Assembly (NCBI GenBank): GCA_030549335.1 | Contig: CM060188.1 | Span: 12,444,501 to 12,508,500 of the forward strand | Direction of reading: 5' to 3' | From: Pontederia crassipes | Taxonomy: Eukaryota > Streptophyta > Magnoliopsida > Commelinales > Pontederiaceae | Length of the DNA stretch: 64,000 bases | In this document: positions 3,749-46,629 of the stretch, one piece after another | Layout of the letters: the number at the start of each line of letters is the position of its first letter | How positions within the stretch are numbered: position 1 is the stretch's first letter | Notes under the pieces: generated by a model | Database searches by the model: none | Told to the model about the DNA's origin: nothing | Seen by the model: only the letters and a program-made list of their open reading frames with translations | Program-made: the position numbers and the translations under genes

Positions 3749-4603
3749 GAAACAAGGGGAAGAGGAGCCTTTGAGCACCCATTTGGGTCGAGTGGCCTCC
3801 ACCAAAAAGCCAATCAGATTCCCACGCAGCTCTTCTTTCTCTCTCCTCGCTCTCCTTCTCCTCCTCCCTCCTCCTCCTCCACGTCTGCTTGCTTCAGATC
3901 TCCAACTACATCTGCTGCTGCAGGAGAACAACCAGCAGGAGGAACAGGGGAAGGAATAGAATCAAGGCATATTAATCCACTTGGGCGGAAAGAGCAAAAG
4001 GAAAGAAGGGGATAATAGAGAGATGGATTGGTAGATCCATCCCCCCTTCTTCTCCTTCTGGTTCCTCCTCCTTTCTCTCTCCTCTGTTCCCAGCTGTGCT
4101 TACAATTCGGTGCGTCTTTTTTACCGTCCCCCTGCTTCCACGCCGCGTCACCTTCTCTTGCTTTTCTCCTATCGATGTTGGATTGGCATCTGCTGTCTGC
4201 CTGCAGGCGACTGGAGCTGCCGTCTTGACTTGCCACACTGCAAAGGCGCAAGCTTGCAGGCTTCCGATCATTTCATAGTTCGATTGGTTCCTTTACTGGT
4301 GTGTCTACTGCGATTGTTGTTCTATCATAAGCTTTCTCGTGTCGTTTCTATTGCTCTTTCTTCAATTCCTCCTCCCTCAAGTGGTTGACTCGCTTCAAGA
4401 CGAGCCTGCGTTCTCTCGCGTTCAATTCTTTTGCTCTTGATTCTTTCCTCTGGAGCTGACAATTTCTCGAGCATTTGCTTCGCTGTATTCGTCCTATTCT
4501 CTCTCTCTCTCTCTAGAATTCTTACAATCAAATTTTAGCCATAAAGATTCCATCTTGAGATTGCGGGAATCGCTGGTTAGGAGGGAGCTGAACCAAAATC
4601 CAG

Positions 4604-31201: not shown

Positions 31202-31273
31202 CGCCGTTGCCGGGGATCGAACCCGGGTCTCCCGCGTGACAGGCGGGGATACTCACCACTATACTACAACGAC
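31202..31273 (-). tRNA. tRNA-Asp (anticodon GUC)
   Basis: A 72-nt cloverleaf on the minus strand without intron or encoded CCA. The acceptor stem pairs GTCGTTG with CAACGGC, followed by discriminator G. The A box is TAGTATAGTGGTGAGTA and the B box is GGTTCGATCC. The anticodon stem CCGCC/GCGGG-type encloses loop CTGTCAC with anticodon GTC, which decodes GAC/GAU. A T6 Pol III terminator follows. All stems look intact, so it is probably functional and nuclear. Confidence 0.96.
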
Positions 31274-35608: not shown

Positions 35609-37141
35609 ATGGAAGGTTTAGGCGGCTACTACTCCATTTTTACCTCCTCCATTGCCGCCTCCTTCTCGGCGATGCATCTTCTTAACGACGACGACTGCGT
35701 CAAGCTCAACGTCGGCGGTAAGCTGTTTCAGACCACCCAACGCACCCTCCAGTCCGCCGGTTCCGACTCCCTCCTCGCCGCCCTCTCCCTTCGCGCCGGC
35801 GACCGCGACCCCATCTTCATTGACCGTGACCCTGAGGTCTTCTCTCTGCTCCTCTCCGTCCTCCGGTCCCACCGCCTCCCCTCCGCGGCCCTTCGCCGCT
35901 TCTCAGCCCGGGACCTCCTTGACGAGGCCCTCTACTATGGCCTCGACTCCTTGCTCCGCTCCGCCATGGCTCCGCCGCCTCTCCTCGGCTTCGACGCCTC
36001 CCTCGTCGCCACCCTCCGCCCCGCCTCCGACGCCCTTCCCACCGCCTTCTCCGCCGGCTGCGACGATGGCTCCGTCTGGATCGCCCACGGCGGCCAGATC
36101 TCCGCTTACGATTGGACCCTCGCCCACGCCAGCACAATCCGGACGCACGTCGACGAGATCACCTCCCTCCGCCGCGCGTGGCCGGAGGTCGCGGCGGTCG
36201 GCTCCTTGGTGTCGCCGGGCCTCAACTTCTACGACGTCTCCAGCGGCCGCCACGCGGGCGGCGTCCACTGGACCGATCCGTCCGATCCCCGGGTCTACAA
36301 GGCGCGAGTCACCGCGATCGCCGCCGGCGTTTCCGACTCCGGGGACCCTCTGTACGCGGCGTTCGAGTGCCCCCACAGGGAGAACTGCATCCTGGCGGTG
36401 GACCGGGCGACCCTGCAGGTCTCGTCGGAGATCGGGCGCCAGAGCGGGAGTGCAGCGAAGTCGGCGTCGCCGGGGAAGCTAGTGCACGTGCGGGAGCGAG
36501 GGCTGGTGTTCGCGTCGGCGGTGAGCGCGGGGGCTTTTGGGTACGCCGGTTACATGAGGTTGTGGGATCCGAGGTCCGGGGAGGTGGTGTGGGAGACGAA
36601 CGAGCCAGGGGGAGCGGGGCGGAGCGGCCGGTTCGGGGACTCGTTCGCGGACGTGGAGGTGGACCAGGAGGAACAGACGATCGTGAAGGTGTGCTGGAAG
36701 TCGGGAGACGTCGGTGTGGCGGATATGAGGAAGCTGGGGGAGGATCCGTGGACGTACTTGGAGGAGCCGAGCGCCGCGGGGCTGAGGAGCCGGGGCGCGG
36801 AAGGAGGAGAAGGGGCGAACAGCGTGGTGCACTGCTACAAGAAGCAGGTGTTCGTGAGTCGGGAGGAGGGACTGGAGGTCTGGTCGCAGCTCAAGGAGGA
36901 GGAGGACGCTGATGCCGGGGCCGGAGGAGGAGGAGGAGACGACGACCGGAATGTGGATGGTGGCCGTGGAAGATGGCGGAGGTACAGGAGAAACTTTGTT
37001 GACAGGGAAGAGGACGCGAGGAGGGGACTGATAAGAAGGATGGAAGGTGGCGGAGATCGGCTGTTCGTGAGCAGGGAAGGCATGGAAGGGGTCGAAGTCT
37101 GGGCGAGCTCCGACTTGTCGGGCGCCGTATCACTCCTCTAA
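35609..37141 (+). CDS. BTB/POZ (KCTD-type) domain protein, At2g24240/At4g30940-like
   Basis: An intronless frame of 510 aa. A KCTD-type BTB/T1 domain lies at about residues 28-120: VKLNVGGKLFQTT, GDRDPIFIDRDPEVFSLLLSVLR, then LLDEALYYGLDSLL. The rest resembles a beta-propeller-like C-terminal region of this plant family, with repeated short blocks (GCDDGSVWIAHGGQISAYDW, YAGYMRLWDPRSGEVVWET, EEGLEVWSQ, EGVEVWASSDL). BTB proteins of this kind commonly act as CUL3 ubiquitin-ligase adaptors; no specific substrate can be read here. The first ATG is used; an alternative start is Met22 (MHLLNDDDC), which aligns better with shorter family members. A Gly/Asp-rich insert (AGGGGGDDD) near residue 435 makes it longer than the Arabidopsis protein. 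GC3 is very high. Confidence 0.9.
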   Translation: MEGLGGYYSIFTSSIAASFSAMHLLNDDDCVKLNVGGKLFQTTQRTLQSAGSDSLLAALSLRAGDRDPIFIDRDPEVFSLLLSVLRSHRLPSAALRRFSARDLLDEALYYGLDSLLRSAMAPPPLLGFDASLVATLRPASDALPTAFSAGCDDGSVWIAHGGQISAYDWTLAHASTIRTHVDEITSLRRAWPEVAAVGSLVSPGLNFYDVSSGRHAGGVHWTDPSDPRVYKARVTAIAAGVSDSGDPLYAAFECPHRENCILAVDRATLQVSSEIGRQSGSAAKSASPGKLVHVRERGLVFASAVSAGAFGYAGYMRLWDPRSGEVVWETNEPGGAGRSGRFGDSFADVEVDQEEQTIVKVCWKSGDVGVADMRKLGEDPWTYLEEPSAAGLRSRGAEGGEGANSVVHCYKKQVFVSREEGLEVWSQLKEEEDADAGAGGGGGDDDRNVDGGRGRWRRYRRNFVDREEDARRGLIRRMEGGGDRLFVSREGMEGVEVWASSDLSGAVSLL

Positions 37142-37903: not shown

Positions 37904-40900
37904 TTATAGAGCATCGCGTGCTGCAATTCTGCATACTAACGCATCGGAAAGAGAAGATATCTCTAACTCCTGTGGAGTTACTTTATAATGCTGTCCACGT
38001 ATTAAAGAACTAGAATAAATATTCAGGAAATAAATATGCCTAAAAGATGCACGAGACGGTCAAAGAAAAATTTAAAATAAATTTCAAACCTTTTGTATTT
38101 GGGCATTGTCAGCCCTCCCTTCCAACTCTTCTAAATCAATTTCTTCCCCACTTATCAGTTTCTCCACAGCTTTCATCTAAAAACAGGATGAATAACATTA
38201 ATAACAGTATTGAAGATGAAAAAATAAAAACATTGCGAGGCATTTTTCGGTCGGTCAATGTCAACATTTGGATCTTTCAAAGGGACGCTAAAGGTAAATA
38301 TTTTAAACCAGAAATTATAGAAAACTGGAACGTGCGGTGCCACAGGTAACAAATGGCTCGTATGAAATTGTGAAATATAACATCACCCACATCCCCCACC
38401 TCAGCCTAAAGATGGAATTTCGGGCAGGCCGCACGGCCCGGCCGCCTAAAATCCGTACTGGCTCGGCCCGGCACGAACACATCCCCGCGCACGAAAAAAC
38501 GGGCTGTGTCGTGCCATACCGTGCCGGGTCGCCCATCCGCACTGTTGGCAAGACACGGCTCGGGCACGGTGAACACGGACTCAGCACGACACAGCCCATT
38601 TTGGCACGGGTTATTTTTTTAACGTTCAAACACGGACCGTGTAATACAAGCACGGTCCACGTACTTCGATGATGGGACGCGTCGGATGCCGTATTTGTAC
38701 TTCAACACGGACCATGTGTGCCATAACACGGTCCGTGTTAAGAAGAGGACAACGGCCGATCAAACACAACCCGTTTTTTTTATTAAATAAGATTCGTGAT
38801 TTGACAACACAAACACGGGTGCGCGACTGTGCGGTCAAAAAGTTCAACACGGACCGTGTCAGTTCCAACACGGGCCGTGTTGGAGTATTTTTATTCCATT
38901 CATCCGCCTATAAAAGGCACGTTCGATTTCATTCCTTCTCCACACCTCCACTCGAAAATCCCTCTACTTCCATTCTTCCAAATCTTCTAATCTTCCATAG
39001 TGCTTTTTGTAACTCTCTCTGCCTCTCTCACACTGAGTGACTCAGTCGTTCTGCATTTTTCTTCTCTCCATTCGTGCTCTGCTCTCAAACTTTCTCACTT
39101 TTAATTTATATTTATATTGTAATATTTATTTAGTAGTATTTTTATATTATTATTCACTCTTAATTTCTTATATATAACTGCATAATGGACCCGCGAGATC
39201 CCTTTCGTCTATATGGTGATTTTGCTGCTTATTCACCTTATGGACCACTACCTACATATCCATATGGTACACCATATAATACTAATAGTAGTGGTGATTC
39301 TAATTTTTTATCAGCACAATTAAGTGACGATTCGTCGGGTTATATGAAAACTGCGGCGCCATCAACTAACTTCCCAATTACTCCAACTACATATGTTAAT
39401 CTTCCTGTCATTTTTAATCTTAATATTGCTTCAAGTTCTGCAAGTTCCGAAGGAGATTGTGCAACTGCGACAACGACACCTCCAGGTCCGTCAAGCTCAG
39501 ATGCTCCCGCGCAAGGTGAGATAATAGGTAAAAAAAGAAGAACATCAAAGTTAACTAGTGAAGTTTGGAATTATTTTGAAAAAATTATAGATGAAAATGA
39601 TCCAAAAAAAGATAAAGCTATTTGTAAAATTTGCAAGGCTAGTTATGCTGCCGCCTCTTCTTCGGGCACCGGTAGTTTAAAACGACATTTAGAATCGCAT
39701 CCTATAACTACTAGGGAACAATTTTTAGCGGGTCAATTACCGCAACAGACTCAACTAATTGCACCCGGTCGTGGTACCGCCGAGAGCTCTTTATTTGCTT
39801 ATAATCAAGAAAATATGCGTGAATGTTTAGCTAGATATGTTATACATGCAGAAATGCCTTACACATTTACTGAAGATGAAAAATTTTTATATTATCAACA
39901 AAATTATGTACAAGGTGCCTTTCGAAATGTTAGTAGAAAAACTGTTAAAGAAGATTCGATTAAATTATATCGTAAGAAGAAAAATGAACTAATTAATTAT
40001 TTTTTAGATTCTAAATTCATGTATAGTTTGACTAGTGACATATGAACTTCTTTAAATGGTGATGGTTTCTTATGTGTTACAATTCATTGGATTGATACAA
40101 ATTGGGTAGTGCAAAAAAGAATTATTGCGTTTAAAGAAATTGAGCATCCTCATAATGGTTTGCAAATTGCCAATGTGATAGAAAAAGTAATTAACGAATA
40201 TGGTCTTAAAGAGAAAATTTTATGTCTTACTCTTGACAATGCAAGTGCTAATAATTCCGCTGCACAATTTTTAATTCAAAGATTAAATCCTCCTTTAAAT
40301 GGAATTCTTTTTCATCAAAGATGTGCATGTCATATTATTAATTTGTGTGTTAAAAAAGAATTAAAGGTAGTTGTTAGAGTACTTGAAACTCTTAGAGCAG
40401 TTATTGTAAATCTACGTCACTCTGGACTTAGGAGACAAACATTTAAAGAAATTTGTCATCGTTATAATATTCCTTATAGAAAATTAAACACTGATGTGTC
40501 TACGAGATGGAATAGTACTTACGACATGCTTAAATTATGTATTCCATTTAGACATCCACTCGATAATTATATTTTAACTCGAATGACTGATGCAGAAAGG
40601 GATGTTGCTAATGCAGTTATGGAATTGTTACAAGTTTTTTATAATGCTACTTTAGAGTTATCTGCCATTTATTCTCCTACTTCACATTTAATAATTAATC
40701 AACTTCATGAAATGACAAGTTCATTTAATGAAAAACTTGAATTATCAAATGATTTTTCTGAAATAATTTATTTGATGGAATCAAAATTTTTGGAATATTG
40801 GAATAATTTGCCTCTCATAGGAATTTTAGCAATGACGATGGATCCTAGATTTAAAGGATCCGGTCCTAAATGGTACACCAGAGAGATTAAGAATTGTTTT

Positions 40901-43900
40901 CCCGAACAATATATAAAAAGTCATCCAGAATTGCAAACTGACGGTTTTATTAATCCAGATCATGATTACGAAAATATAATAAATAACTTATATAATATTT
41001 ATGAAGCAAATTTTGGTATACGTAGAGAGCAAGCATCTTCATCACGTCCACCAGTAGCACCCAGACCTTCCAATAATAGATCATTTTCTACATTCATGTC
41101 CTCTATTAGGGGGGGCACATCAAGAGGATCGGATGAAGGTTCATCCAATTCAACTGCCCCTTTGTATAATGAACTACAAGATTACTTATCACGTCCAAAT
41201 GAATGTGATAGTGAAATCGATATCTTGACCTGGTGGAGATTAAACTGTCGTACGTATCCAATTCTCTCCGCCTTAGCTCGAGATCTTTTAGCTGTTCCGA
41301 TGTCTACAGTGGCATCAAAACAATGTTTTTCTGCAGGTTCCAGAATTTTGGACGAGAGAAGAAATAGAATGAACTCTAAGTCGATGGAGGTTTGTATATT
41401 ATTAAAAGATTGGTTTGATGCAGATACTCAAACACAAGGTCAGGAATCCATATTACCATACATAGAAGATGATGATGAAACGGATGTCTCCTCCGCTTAT
41501 AATTCTTCATAAAATAATTGTTTGTACAAGATGTAATTTTTAATTTTTTATAATTTTGCATTTATTGATTATTTCATAATAATCAATAATAATAAAACAT
41601 TAAAACTTCCGTGGACGTAGGCTAAAATAGTCGAACCACGTTAATCTCGGTGTCCATTACTATTTTTACTATATAATAAATTAGTACTTAATTATCTATA
41701 GTATAGTAGTATCCTACCTAAGTACCTAATTATCTATACTACTTATGCATTATACAATAAATTATATATAATGTAGTACAATAGTACTAATGTACTATAT
41801 ATTATATTCTCTCTCTCAAACTCTCACTCTCACTTTGGGTAGAATACTAGAATACAATTAATTACTAATATATATTTATTAAATACTTACCAATTACTTT
41901 TATATATAAAGTTATAACTTATTAGTTATTACTCAAAACTCAATTAATCATTTTACAAATTTATTTACTTAATAATTATAAATTAAGGACTTAATGTATT
42001 TGAAATTTTAACTATATAGTTATTATCAATTGTATATTATAGAATAAATAATAATACTCATTATACTCTACTCTATCTCTATTCTATAATAATTTAATAA
42101 TTAAATTTATTTTATTATTTAAAAAGTTGAAATTAAAAAAAAAATGGGCCGCGGGCCGCCCGACCCGACCCGGCCGGCCCGATCAGGCCGGGCCTAAACC
42201 GTGTCGGGGTTGAAAACGGTCCGTTTTGCACTACAGCCCGTTTTGAAAACGTGTCGTGTGGCACGACACGGCCCGCGGCACGGTCAAACACGGGTTGACC
42301 GGCACGGGCACGGCACGACACCGCCCGTTTTTCCATCTCTACCTCAGCCCGACAAACACACAAATGATGCGACTCAAATGATAATTTACAAGCTTCTGGT
42401 ATTTTCTTTACAGAAAACTCTTATGTCTGCTTGATTGTGATATCAACACACACAAAAAAAAAACACAGTTTCCGTGCTGCTATATATAGCTCCTAAAATC
42501 AGTTAGTTAGCCCTTCTTTATTTTTCCTTTAAAGGTCAGTTAGCCCTTCATCTCTCTTTAGACCAAGACTGATTTTCCATGGTGTATCAAGATATCAGGA
42601 TTTGATCCCTACAATTATATAAACAAAAGCTTCAGGTGTAGTCAATCACTTGACATGGCGTGCTAGTGAACATCAAACCAAAGTTTCATCATTTGTTCGG
42701 TGAGTTTAAACCGGAAGAACTTATTGATGCTTCAGGAGTCCAAGCGCTTAAGAATTGTCAACATTGACAAGTTATTCTTTGTTGCTTTAACATCCATTTC
42801 TACAGTTTCTATCTCGAAGGCATTCCATTAATTGATTAAATCATATTTGACATAGAATGTTAAGCAGAAAACATAGGGTCAAAAGTGGATGAACAAATCA
42901 AACTGGCATACTGATAAATAATGATGATATAACAAATGAAAATATAATAAGCCAAAGAATGATTCAGTAGAGTTAAATCTGTGTAACTGAACAACTTCTT
43001 TTCACAAAAGATGCAACTAAATAACTGAGGAAACTCCGTGTAACAAAAGGTTGTACCTCATCGTGAGAATCAGAAAATAGGGCAGCAAGTATGTATGTTG
43101 AGTCATCGGATATCCCGCATCTCTTAAGGGATTCTCTTATCTGGCGAACGATCAAGAATGACAAGTTATCCTACAGTAAAATGGGAAGCACTGCATATGA
43201 TGAACTCTTATTGCTTACATGTTTAGACCCAGAGTAGTTATAAACAAGCTCCGAATGAAGAGTACGTGTCGTAAGAGATTCTCTCGATTTGGCAATAATA
43301 GCCTTCTGTGCTGCCGCCAAGACAGGAAATACATCTGGTACCTGCCCCATATAACAAAAAAAGTATCATCATTAAAAAGAGTGCCTTGACTATTCAAAGT
43401 GGACAAGCTTGTGAGTTCTAAAGTAGATAAAATAATTAATTACAATAGTGAAGCTAGAACAGGACAGAACATACAAGTGATGCATTGATTAGTGCAACTT
43501 CTGGTTCTAATTTTCCTGCCTGCATAGATTCCAGGAGCTCCCTGAAAATTGAAAGATAAATATTAATTTGTTCGGAGGTAGGCAAAACACTTTTTTCTGC
43601 TGTAACCCAATAAAAAGAATGCATGATACAGAAGGTTATAGGATACATCGTGAATACGAATGATTCATAGAGTATTCTATAGAAGCAGGTAGTGGATCAA
43701 AATCATCACAATTTCTTTTTTGCGAGAAGCCATCACACAGAACAAGAACGGAAAGCAGAACAAGAAAATACCAAATTTGTAGTTATGCGTTAATAATTCT
43801 GAGTGGACTTAACCTTATGCGATTGATACCTGGCATTCGTGACACCAGAGAAGAGGGCAAGGGCGATTGGGCGTTTGCTATTGCTGTTGTCGTCCTTCAC

Positions 43901-43915
43901 CTCGAACACCTTCAT
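37904..43915 (-). CDS. EKC/KEOPS complex subunit Cgi121 (TPRKB-like)
   Basis: Six exons assemble on the minus strand: 43,915-43,830; 43,541-43,475; 43,341-43,219; 43,140-43,057; 38,176-38,090; 37,990-37,904. All have GT-AG junctions and compatible phases, giving 177 aa. Cgi121 binds the Bud32 kinase in KEOPS, which makes t6A at position 37 of ANN-decoding tRNAs. Hallmarks are the start MKVFEVKD, RPIALALFSGV, MQAGKLEPEVALINASLVPD, KSRESLTTRTLHSELVYNYS, RCGISDDSTYILAA and, in exons 5-6, EEIDLEELEGRAD and PQELEISSL...CRIAARDAL before the stop. The full family length is present. Intron 4 is about 4.9 kb because a 3.9-kb hAT transposon sits in it in the antisense orientation. Whether splicing still works cannot be read from DNA, but all splice sites are intact. 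Confidence 0.92.
38570..38885. repeat. Subterminal palindromic repeats of the hAT element
   Basis: Repeated near-palindromes ACACGGNCCGTGT, for example ACACGGACCGTGT, ACACGGTCCGTGT and ACACGGGCCGTGT, recur about every 30-70 bp, with half-sites CACGGTCC and CGGACCATG between them. Subterminal motif clusters are the usual transposase-binding sites of hAT elements such as Ac; binding here is inferred. Confidence 0.65.
39185..41512 (+). pseudogene. hAT transposase, one in-frame stop
   Basis: A 775-codon frame from ATG at 39,185 to TAA at 41,510-41,512, interrupted only by TGA at 40,043-40,045. The frame is unchanged on both sides. A BED-type zinc finger lies at about residues 121-175 (C147-x2-C150, H168-x3-H172), then the RNase H-like core (TSDI, LTLDNASANN with D351, CHIINLCVK). 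It ends in the hAT C-terminal dimerisation domain at about 665-745 (DILTWWRLN, LLAVPMSTVASKQCFSAG, ILDERRN). The stop falls directly after TSDI, where the family usually has tryptophan, so TGG to TGA is the simplest explanation. The protein is related to RICESLEEPER/Ac-type transposases. Base composition is AT-rich, unlike nearby host exons. Confidence 0.9.
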
Positions 43916-45320: not shown

Positions 45321-45642
45321 TCTAGGACACAGACATGTGCTAGATGTGCTTCGCAAATATCTTAGAATTAATTTAATTGCATAATCAAAATTCAAAACAT
45401 CAATTTGTTCTTAAGTGTCCTTTTGTCATTATGAAACTTTACTAATTTGTATGTGATGTTTTCATGCAAAGACTTTATCTCATTTTGCATGGTGTTTATC
45501 CATTCATAATTTTGCTCGTTTGATGGTACTTCTTAACAACATGTCGATTCTCTACTTTCAATTAATAACACATACTATGTTGAAAGTATCACCTTTATTA
45601 TTTATTTCTTGAATTTTTCAATTGAGACTTTGGCTCTAATGC

Positions 45643-46629
45643 AATGTTGTCAAGACTAGATCCGATCGGCCGGTCCGACCGTTGACTGGTCATAATAGTG
45701 GCTCAGTTGAAGCCCAAAAATCAAATCCCTATTTGAACCAAATTTAACCGAATTAAACTGATAAAAAACTGATTAAAATCGGTCAAAATAAAAAAAAATC
45801 GAGTTGAACCACATTTTTTTGTTCAACCAAATTTTTTTATTAATTTTTTTTGTTAAGATAATTTGATAAAAGTTATTATTATAAATTTAAAAAATATTCA
45901 AAGAACTTTCTCTATAAATATTCATATTTGCCCATTAGTTTTCTTCTTCATTTATACTTATCAACTTACTCTCACTTTGCTATTACTATCAATGTAGGAC
46001 TATTCTTTTACACTCACTTGTTCTTTTTTTCCTTCAAGTCTTGAATTTATTAAATTTTGAGCTTCAACTTATGGATTATGATATTATTTAATTTTTTAAT
46101 ATCATAAATGTATATTATAATATAAATTAATTATATATTTATTATATTAATATAATATTTATCATATTAGATAAATTAGTTATGAATAAATGGTGCAAAC
46201 TTCTACAACAATACTATAATATGCTTAGTATAGTATAATATTATATATAACTACTAATTATAATATATAATCGTGTCATAATATTTTAGATAAAATATGT
46301 ATTTGTTGCTTCTAACATAAAAAAATAAAGATATGAAATACAAAAAGAATTAACCAATAGAAAATTTGTACATAATAATCAAATTCAATAAGATTTTAAT
46401 TTATTAAGTGTATAATAATTTTAATATCAAATCTTAAGATTAATTATACATTTATGATTGTTATTTTTTGTACAATTACATTTTGGCATCATATATCTAA
46501 TCAAAATTTCATAGCTTGATTTACTATATCATAAATATAATATTATATTATTATATGGTCCGATCGACTAGTCCGATCTGAAACGGACACTTATCCGAAT
46601 CGTCGTCCGGTCCGGTTCTAACAACATTA
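45643..46629 (+). mobile_element. Non-autonomous Mutator-like element, copy D, with 9-bp target duplication
   Basis: 987 bp, non-coding. Left end AATGTTGTCAAGACTAGATC, right end in reverse AATGTTGTTAGAACCGGACC. It is flanked by perfect 9-bp repeats CTCTAATGC (45,634-45,642 and 46,630-46,638), the target-site length of Mutator elements. The GC-rich arms contain CCGATCGG, GGTCCGACC and GGTCCGGTT; the core is AT-rich. Copies A, B and C share this layout. The clean target duplication makes it the youngest of the four. Confidence 0.8.

Follow-up and report, generated by a model that had tools for sequence, protein, structure and literature searches.

Intronic transposable elements have been surveyed in Arabidopsis, where about 3% of all elements are described as lying within gene bodies, mostly in introns, and where the genes that carry them in introns are described as relatively highly expressed (PMC4417168). 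According to the same survey, the loss of heterochromatic marks on such elements is associated with transcription defects of the downstream exons, longer elements being more affected and premature polyadenylation arising at selected genes; in epigenetic mutants, prematurely polyadenylated transcripts near long intronic elements increase (PMC4417168). The locus presented here is alike in that a kilobase-scale element sits within an intron of a host gene whose downstream exons are intact. It differs from the cases in that survey (PMC4417168) in that its host gene also exists as a near-identical second copy without the interruption, and in being known from sequence alone.

The closest described relative of the host gene is At4g34412, identified as Arabidopsis CGI121 (PMC11077089), with which homology extends over nearly the whole protein, whereas two gene copies are present here. 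As reported, CGI121 is dispensable for t6A formation in vitro with Arabidopsis proteins (PMC11077089), and the deletion of yeast Cgi121 is described as mild while the protein is reported to be essential in Haloferax (PMC3814370). The importance of Cgi121 therefore varies between organisms.

We argue, with a probability of roughly 0.85, that a hAT-family element inserted into one of two young CGI121 copies after these had separated, and that the element is now defective and likely spliced out.

The host gene and its interrupted intron

The window, meaning the whole stretch of 64,000 nucleotides analyzed here (C6:12444501-12508500), carries on its minus strand, from 43915 to 37904, a six-exon CGI-121/TPRKB (KEOPS) gene with GT/AG boundaries at all five introns (Table 1). 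The original prediction had correctly placed the end of exon 4 at 43057 and the start of exon 5 at 38176, some 4.9 kb apart. Its assignment of the gene to Cgi121/TPRKB is borne out as well: in searches with a 187-residue version of the product, ten residues longer than the final 177-residue protein, the Pfam domain CGI-121 (PF08617) was covered in full (1-159 of 159, E 2.3e-40), and the best solved relative in the PDB was At4g34412 (8k20_C, E 1.5e-63), matched over nearly the whole protein. Judging from this homology, the product would presumably assemble with Bud32 in KEOPS and contribute to t6A formation.

The ten extra residues come from an alternative start of exon 4 at 43170, which we rejected. 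They have no counterpart in any of the three aligned solved relatives (8k20_C and two TPRKB chains, 9x4g_C and 3enp_A, the latter from human), and exon 4 is therefore placed from 43140; the C5 copy of the gene has a CAG at the position matching this acceptor. The coding sequence then runs from 43915 to 37904 and encodes 177 amino acids.

Table 1. Positions of the CGI121 gene and of the inserted hAT element within the window.
Feature	Position	Strand	Remarks
CGI121 exon 1	43830..43915	-	ATG at 43915; counterpart in C5 copy, L019 5930-6015
CGI121 exon 2	43475..43541	-	gene model and C5 copy
CGI121 exon 3	43219..43341	-	gene model and C5 copy
CGI121 exon 4	43057..43140	-	acceptor CAG just upstream of 43140; homology to 8k20_C and two TPRKB chains
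CGI121 intron 4	38177..43056	-	4,880 bp; 896 bp in C5 copy
CGI121 exon 5	38090..38176	-	gene model and C5 copy
CGI121 exon 6, stop included	37904..37990	-	gene model and C5 copy
hAT element	38407..42341	+	3,935 bp, antisense to host gene; termini and duplication; absent at homologous C5 site
Target-site duplication CCTCAGCC	38399..38406	.	perfect 8-bp match with other side
Target-site duplication CCTCAGCC	42342..42349	.	perfect 8-bp match with other side
Transposase frame, N-terminal part	39185..40045	+	BED zinc finger; ends at TGA
Transposase frame, remainder	40046..41512	+	hAT RNase-H-like and dimerization regions; Lys codon at 41318

As predicted, intron 4 harbors an antisense hAT element between perfect target-site duplications, and the last two exons of CGI121 lie beyond it. 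The insert is assigned to the hAT superfamily, of which Ac and Tam3 are plant examples, because its plus-strand frame has a BED finger followed by hAT RNase-H-like and dimerization regions (PF02892, PF14372 and PF05699, each above the Pfam cut-off, in two pieces of one transposase frame). In addition to these regions it has in common with the superfamily, and with Hermes by sequence match, duplications of 8 bp and short, imperfect inverted termini, which agree at 15 of 19 terminal bases. The terminal pattern TARAGATGGAAWWWCGGGC, allowing up to three mismatches, occurs at only two sites in the window; these are the ends of the element, with no mismatch at either, against a chance expectation of 0.36 and with two or more matches reached in 6 of 100 shuffles. 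Across the 1.13-Gb genome (43 contigs), the 19-base left terminus was found 405 times (196 + 209) with up to two mismatches, compared with 3 times (2 + 1) for a reversed control. This genome-wide count, together with the empty paralogous locus described below, is stronger support than the statistic of TARAGATGGAAWWWCGGGC in the window.

A gene finder that split the gene at the hAT would wrongly yield a truncated KEOPS subunit, and the warning given earlier on this point is a useful one.

The empty site on C5 and the origin of the two loci

A protein search of the genome recovered one more full CGI121 copy, located on C5, and a fragment of exon 1 on C15. The fragment (L020, C15:3684001-3693000, positions 4399-4585) matches exon 1 and adjoining sequence at 71% DNA identity. 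The 10-kb C5 stretch that holds the full copy (L019) aligns to window 47000-35813 in three blocks of 92-94% identity. Two of these meet at the hAT (window 45579-42341 with L019 4267-7475; window 38406-35813 with L019 7467-10000), overlapping by 9 bp on L019 at the corresponding junction. Intron 4 of the C5 copy contains exactly one CCTCAGCC, no footprint and no hAT; it is a natural empty site. The proposed check for absence of the insert from a corresponding intron was thus run on the C5 copy within the same genome, and the 3.9-kb insert is absent there.

Since the C5 copy has a single CCTCAGCC and a short intron 4, the insertion of the hAT into the C6 copy most likely postdates the separation of the gene copies. 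We consider it highly improbable that C5 is instead the derived state, with a hAT that predated the duplication and was later precisely excised from C5. Two copies alone leave the order of states formally ambiguous, and hAT elements do excise, but their excision usually leaves a footprint, which the lone CCTCAGCC on C5 does not show. In addition, the window hAT has the shortest terminal branch of the 23 copies in the family tree outside the L033/L035 pair (see below), which speaks against excision as well.

The two loci are collinear over the 10-kb C5 stretch, apart from one 1-kb and one 3.9-kb difference. Window segment 58001-60000 lies 14 kb past the gene; apart from its own locus it is matched best, at 94%, by C5:56785447-56787482 on the minus strand, with the order and inverted orientation that a duplicated block should show. 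The matches that come next, on C14 (78%) and C13 (76%), seem to reflect a duplication older than the young C5/C6 one. The likeliest reading of this one 10-kb stretch and one 2-kb segment is that C5 and C6 carry a young homeologous pair. A recent segmental duplication, as opposed to homeologs of a polyploid, is rather unlikely; the small span of the comparison leaves room for it, but the best match of segment 58001-60000, again on C5 and in order, and the apparently older pair on C14 and C13 both speak for homeology. Whichever of the two holds, what is concluded about the hAT stays the same. We note that C25 accounts for 11 of the shorter matches listed as related to the same segment.

Two further features of the compared region deserve mention. 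Upstream of CGI121, the C5 copy lacks most of window 45580-46627 (about 1,048 bp, 23% GC), whose edges showed no clean target duplication in this comparison. Window 35609-37141 holds an intact single-exon BTB / At2g24240-like beta-propeller gene adjoining CGI121; its C5 counterpart, only partly inside the compared stretch, likewise adjoins the C5 CGI121.

Decay, family and age of the element

The original prediction called the hAT complete. This applies to its structure, with both termini and duplications in place, but not to its transposase, which, unlike that of a working hAT, is broken. A TGA stop at 40043-40045 breaks the frame. At 41318, a Lys codon falls opposite residue 572 of Hermes in the alignment, a position counted from an equal-length match (388-457/535-604) to 8edg_A, a chain of 612 residues; in Hermes this residue is a glutamate, and E572 mutants are reported to be inactive (PMC2533014). 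Furthermore, 21 bp present in 28-29 of the 29 other copies compared are missing. Consequently, the element should not be autonomous, and it lacks the open frame with intact catalytic residues by which an autonomous copy would be recognized. As far as its sequence goes, the window hAT thus appears structurally complete yet non-autonomous.

A genome-wide search with the internal region gave at least 34 near-full-length matches including the window copy, the others being 93-95% identical; this count is a lower bound, as 40 of 546 candidates were scored. Among 29 other copies, whose terminal pairs were picked by a score that rewards matching duplications, the duplications were perfect in 11, agreed at 7 of 8 positions in 8, at 6 in 3 and at three or fewer in 2, while 5 copies had no terminal pair. 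Two copies, L033 (C24) and L035 (C2), are nearly identical and have identical flanking duplications, which suggests either that host DNA was duplicated later on or that the assembly contains a duplicate.

When the match is read straight through from its first codon, the transposase frame is uninterrupted in none of 30 copies, the window's included; the window copy has the fewest stops (one internal and the terminal one). Of the 29 other copies, 4 also have the TGA and a different one has the Lys codon. We therefore set aside the idea of one dead subfamily spreading in trans, parallel mutation being at least as likely. The element may have been broken already and moved by transposase supplied in trans, or it may have been intact when it inserted and have decayed later.

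A tree was built from the 25 copies whose ends were resolved, omitting the 5 that lacked a terminal pair. In it the terminal branch of the window hAT measures 0.0165, compared with 0.0234-0.0415 in the 22 other copies outside L033/L035; the latter two have branches of 0.0045 and 0.0017 above a common stem of 0.0220. Owing to this short branch, the window hAT looks like one of the younger family members. Between the C5 and C6 copies, 60 of 1464 aligned intron bases and 6 of 122.5 synonymous sites are different. Because transposons and introns may mutate at different rates, we assign no date to the insertion.

Expression of and selection on the interrupted copy

Exons 5 and 6 remain intact, as do their splice sites; the two exons differ from those on C5 at 3 bases, and one amino acid is conservatively replaced. 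Four crude patterns, applied to the sense strand of the gene, detected no strong splice sites within intron 4. Normal splicing across the hAT is likely: the gene most likely is still transcribed through the element, with the 4.9-kb intron spliced out as usual. The hAT strand that is carried in the gene's RNA has 12 AATAAA motifs, compared with 4.6 +/- 2.1 in mononucleotide shuffles. Some transcripts may consequently end early, through premature polyadenylation inside the element. The reading frame continued past exon 4 runs for 27 codons of intron 4 before a stop, which lies upstream of the hAT; if the intron were retained, the product would thus be truncated whether or not the element is present.

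These motifs and this stop could also be taken to mean that the hAT has turned the C6 copy into a partial loss-of-function allele, whose transcripts often end inside the element and whose function the C5 copy carries. The product, with intron 4 unspliced, would consist of 120 correct residues and 27 intron-coded ones, and the last 57 would be missing. The increase of premature polyadenylation near long intronic elements in Arabidopsis epigenetic mutants (PMC4417168) fits this view, as does a second copy that could relax selection. We nonetheless regard it as unlikely. The exons and splice sites downstream of the element are preserved almost as on C5, the Arabidopsis genes with intronic elements are described as relatively highly expressed (PMC4417168), and the first stop in intron 4 would act even if the element were absent. 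Still more doubtful is the proposal that the hAT serves as a copy-specific attenuator, intronic polyadenylation lowering full-length CGI121 from one homeolog only. If it were true, the natural filled and empty pair would gauge the effect of an intronic hAT on transcript processing in one nucleus.

The coding sequences of the two copies differ at 7 of 534 bases, 6 of the differences being synonymous and one nonsynonymous (L/I at residue 167, in exon 6), and hence their proteins at one of 177 amino acids. Residue 167 is I in the three aligned solved relatives and L in the hAT-bearing copy, where L is thus probably derived. The resulting pN/pS is 0.05, and the probability of one or fewer nonsynonymous differences would be about 0.002 had one copy drifted neutrally throughout. 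For exons 5-6 alone, however, P = 0.24, so the test does not resolve selection after the insertion.

It had been argued that selection should keep splicing functional. This was overstated: an intact copy without the hAT exists on C5, and, as described above, t6A formation in vitro with Arabidopsis proteins reportedly does not require CGI121 and deletion in yeast is reported as mild. The two copies would be functionally redundant, and any loss of full-length transcript from C6 would be covered by the uninterrupted copy.

By the standards of plant genomics it is ordinary for one of two near-identical genes to carry a defective antisense hAT in an intron. The filled and empty copies, otherwise nearly identical, nevertheless provide an internal control with which to judge how a 3.9-kb hAT in an intron affects splicing and polyadenylation. 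Elsewhere in the window, a tRNA-Asp (GTC) gene lies on the minus strand at 31202-31273.
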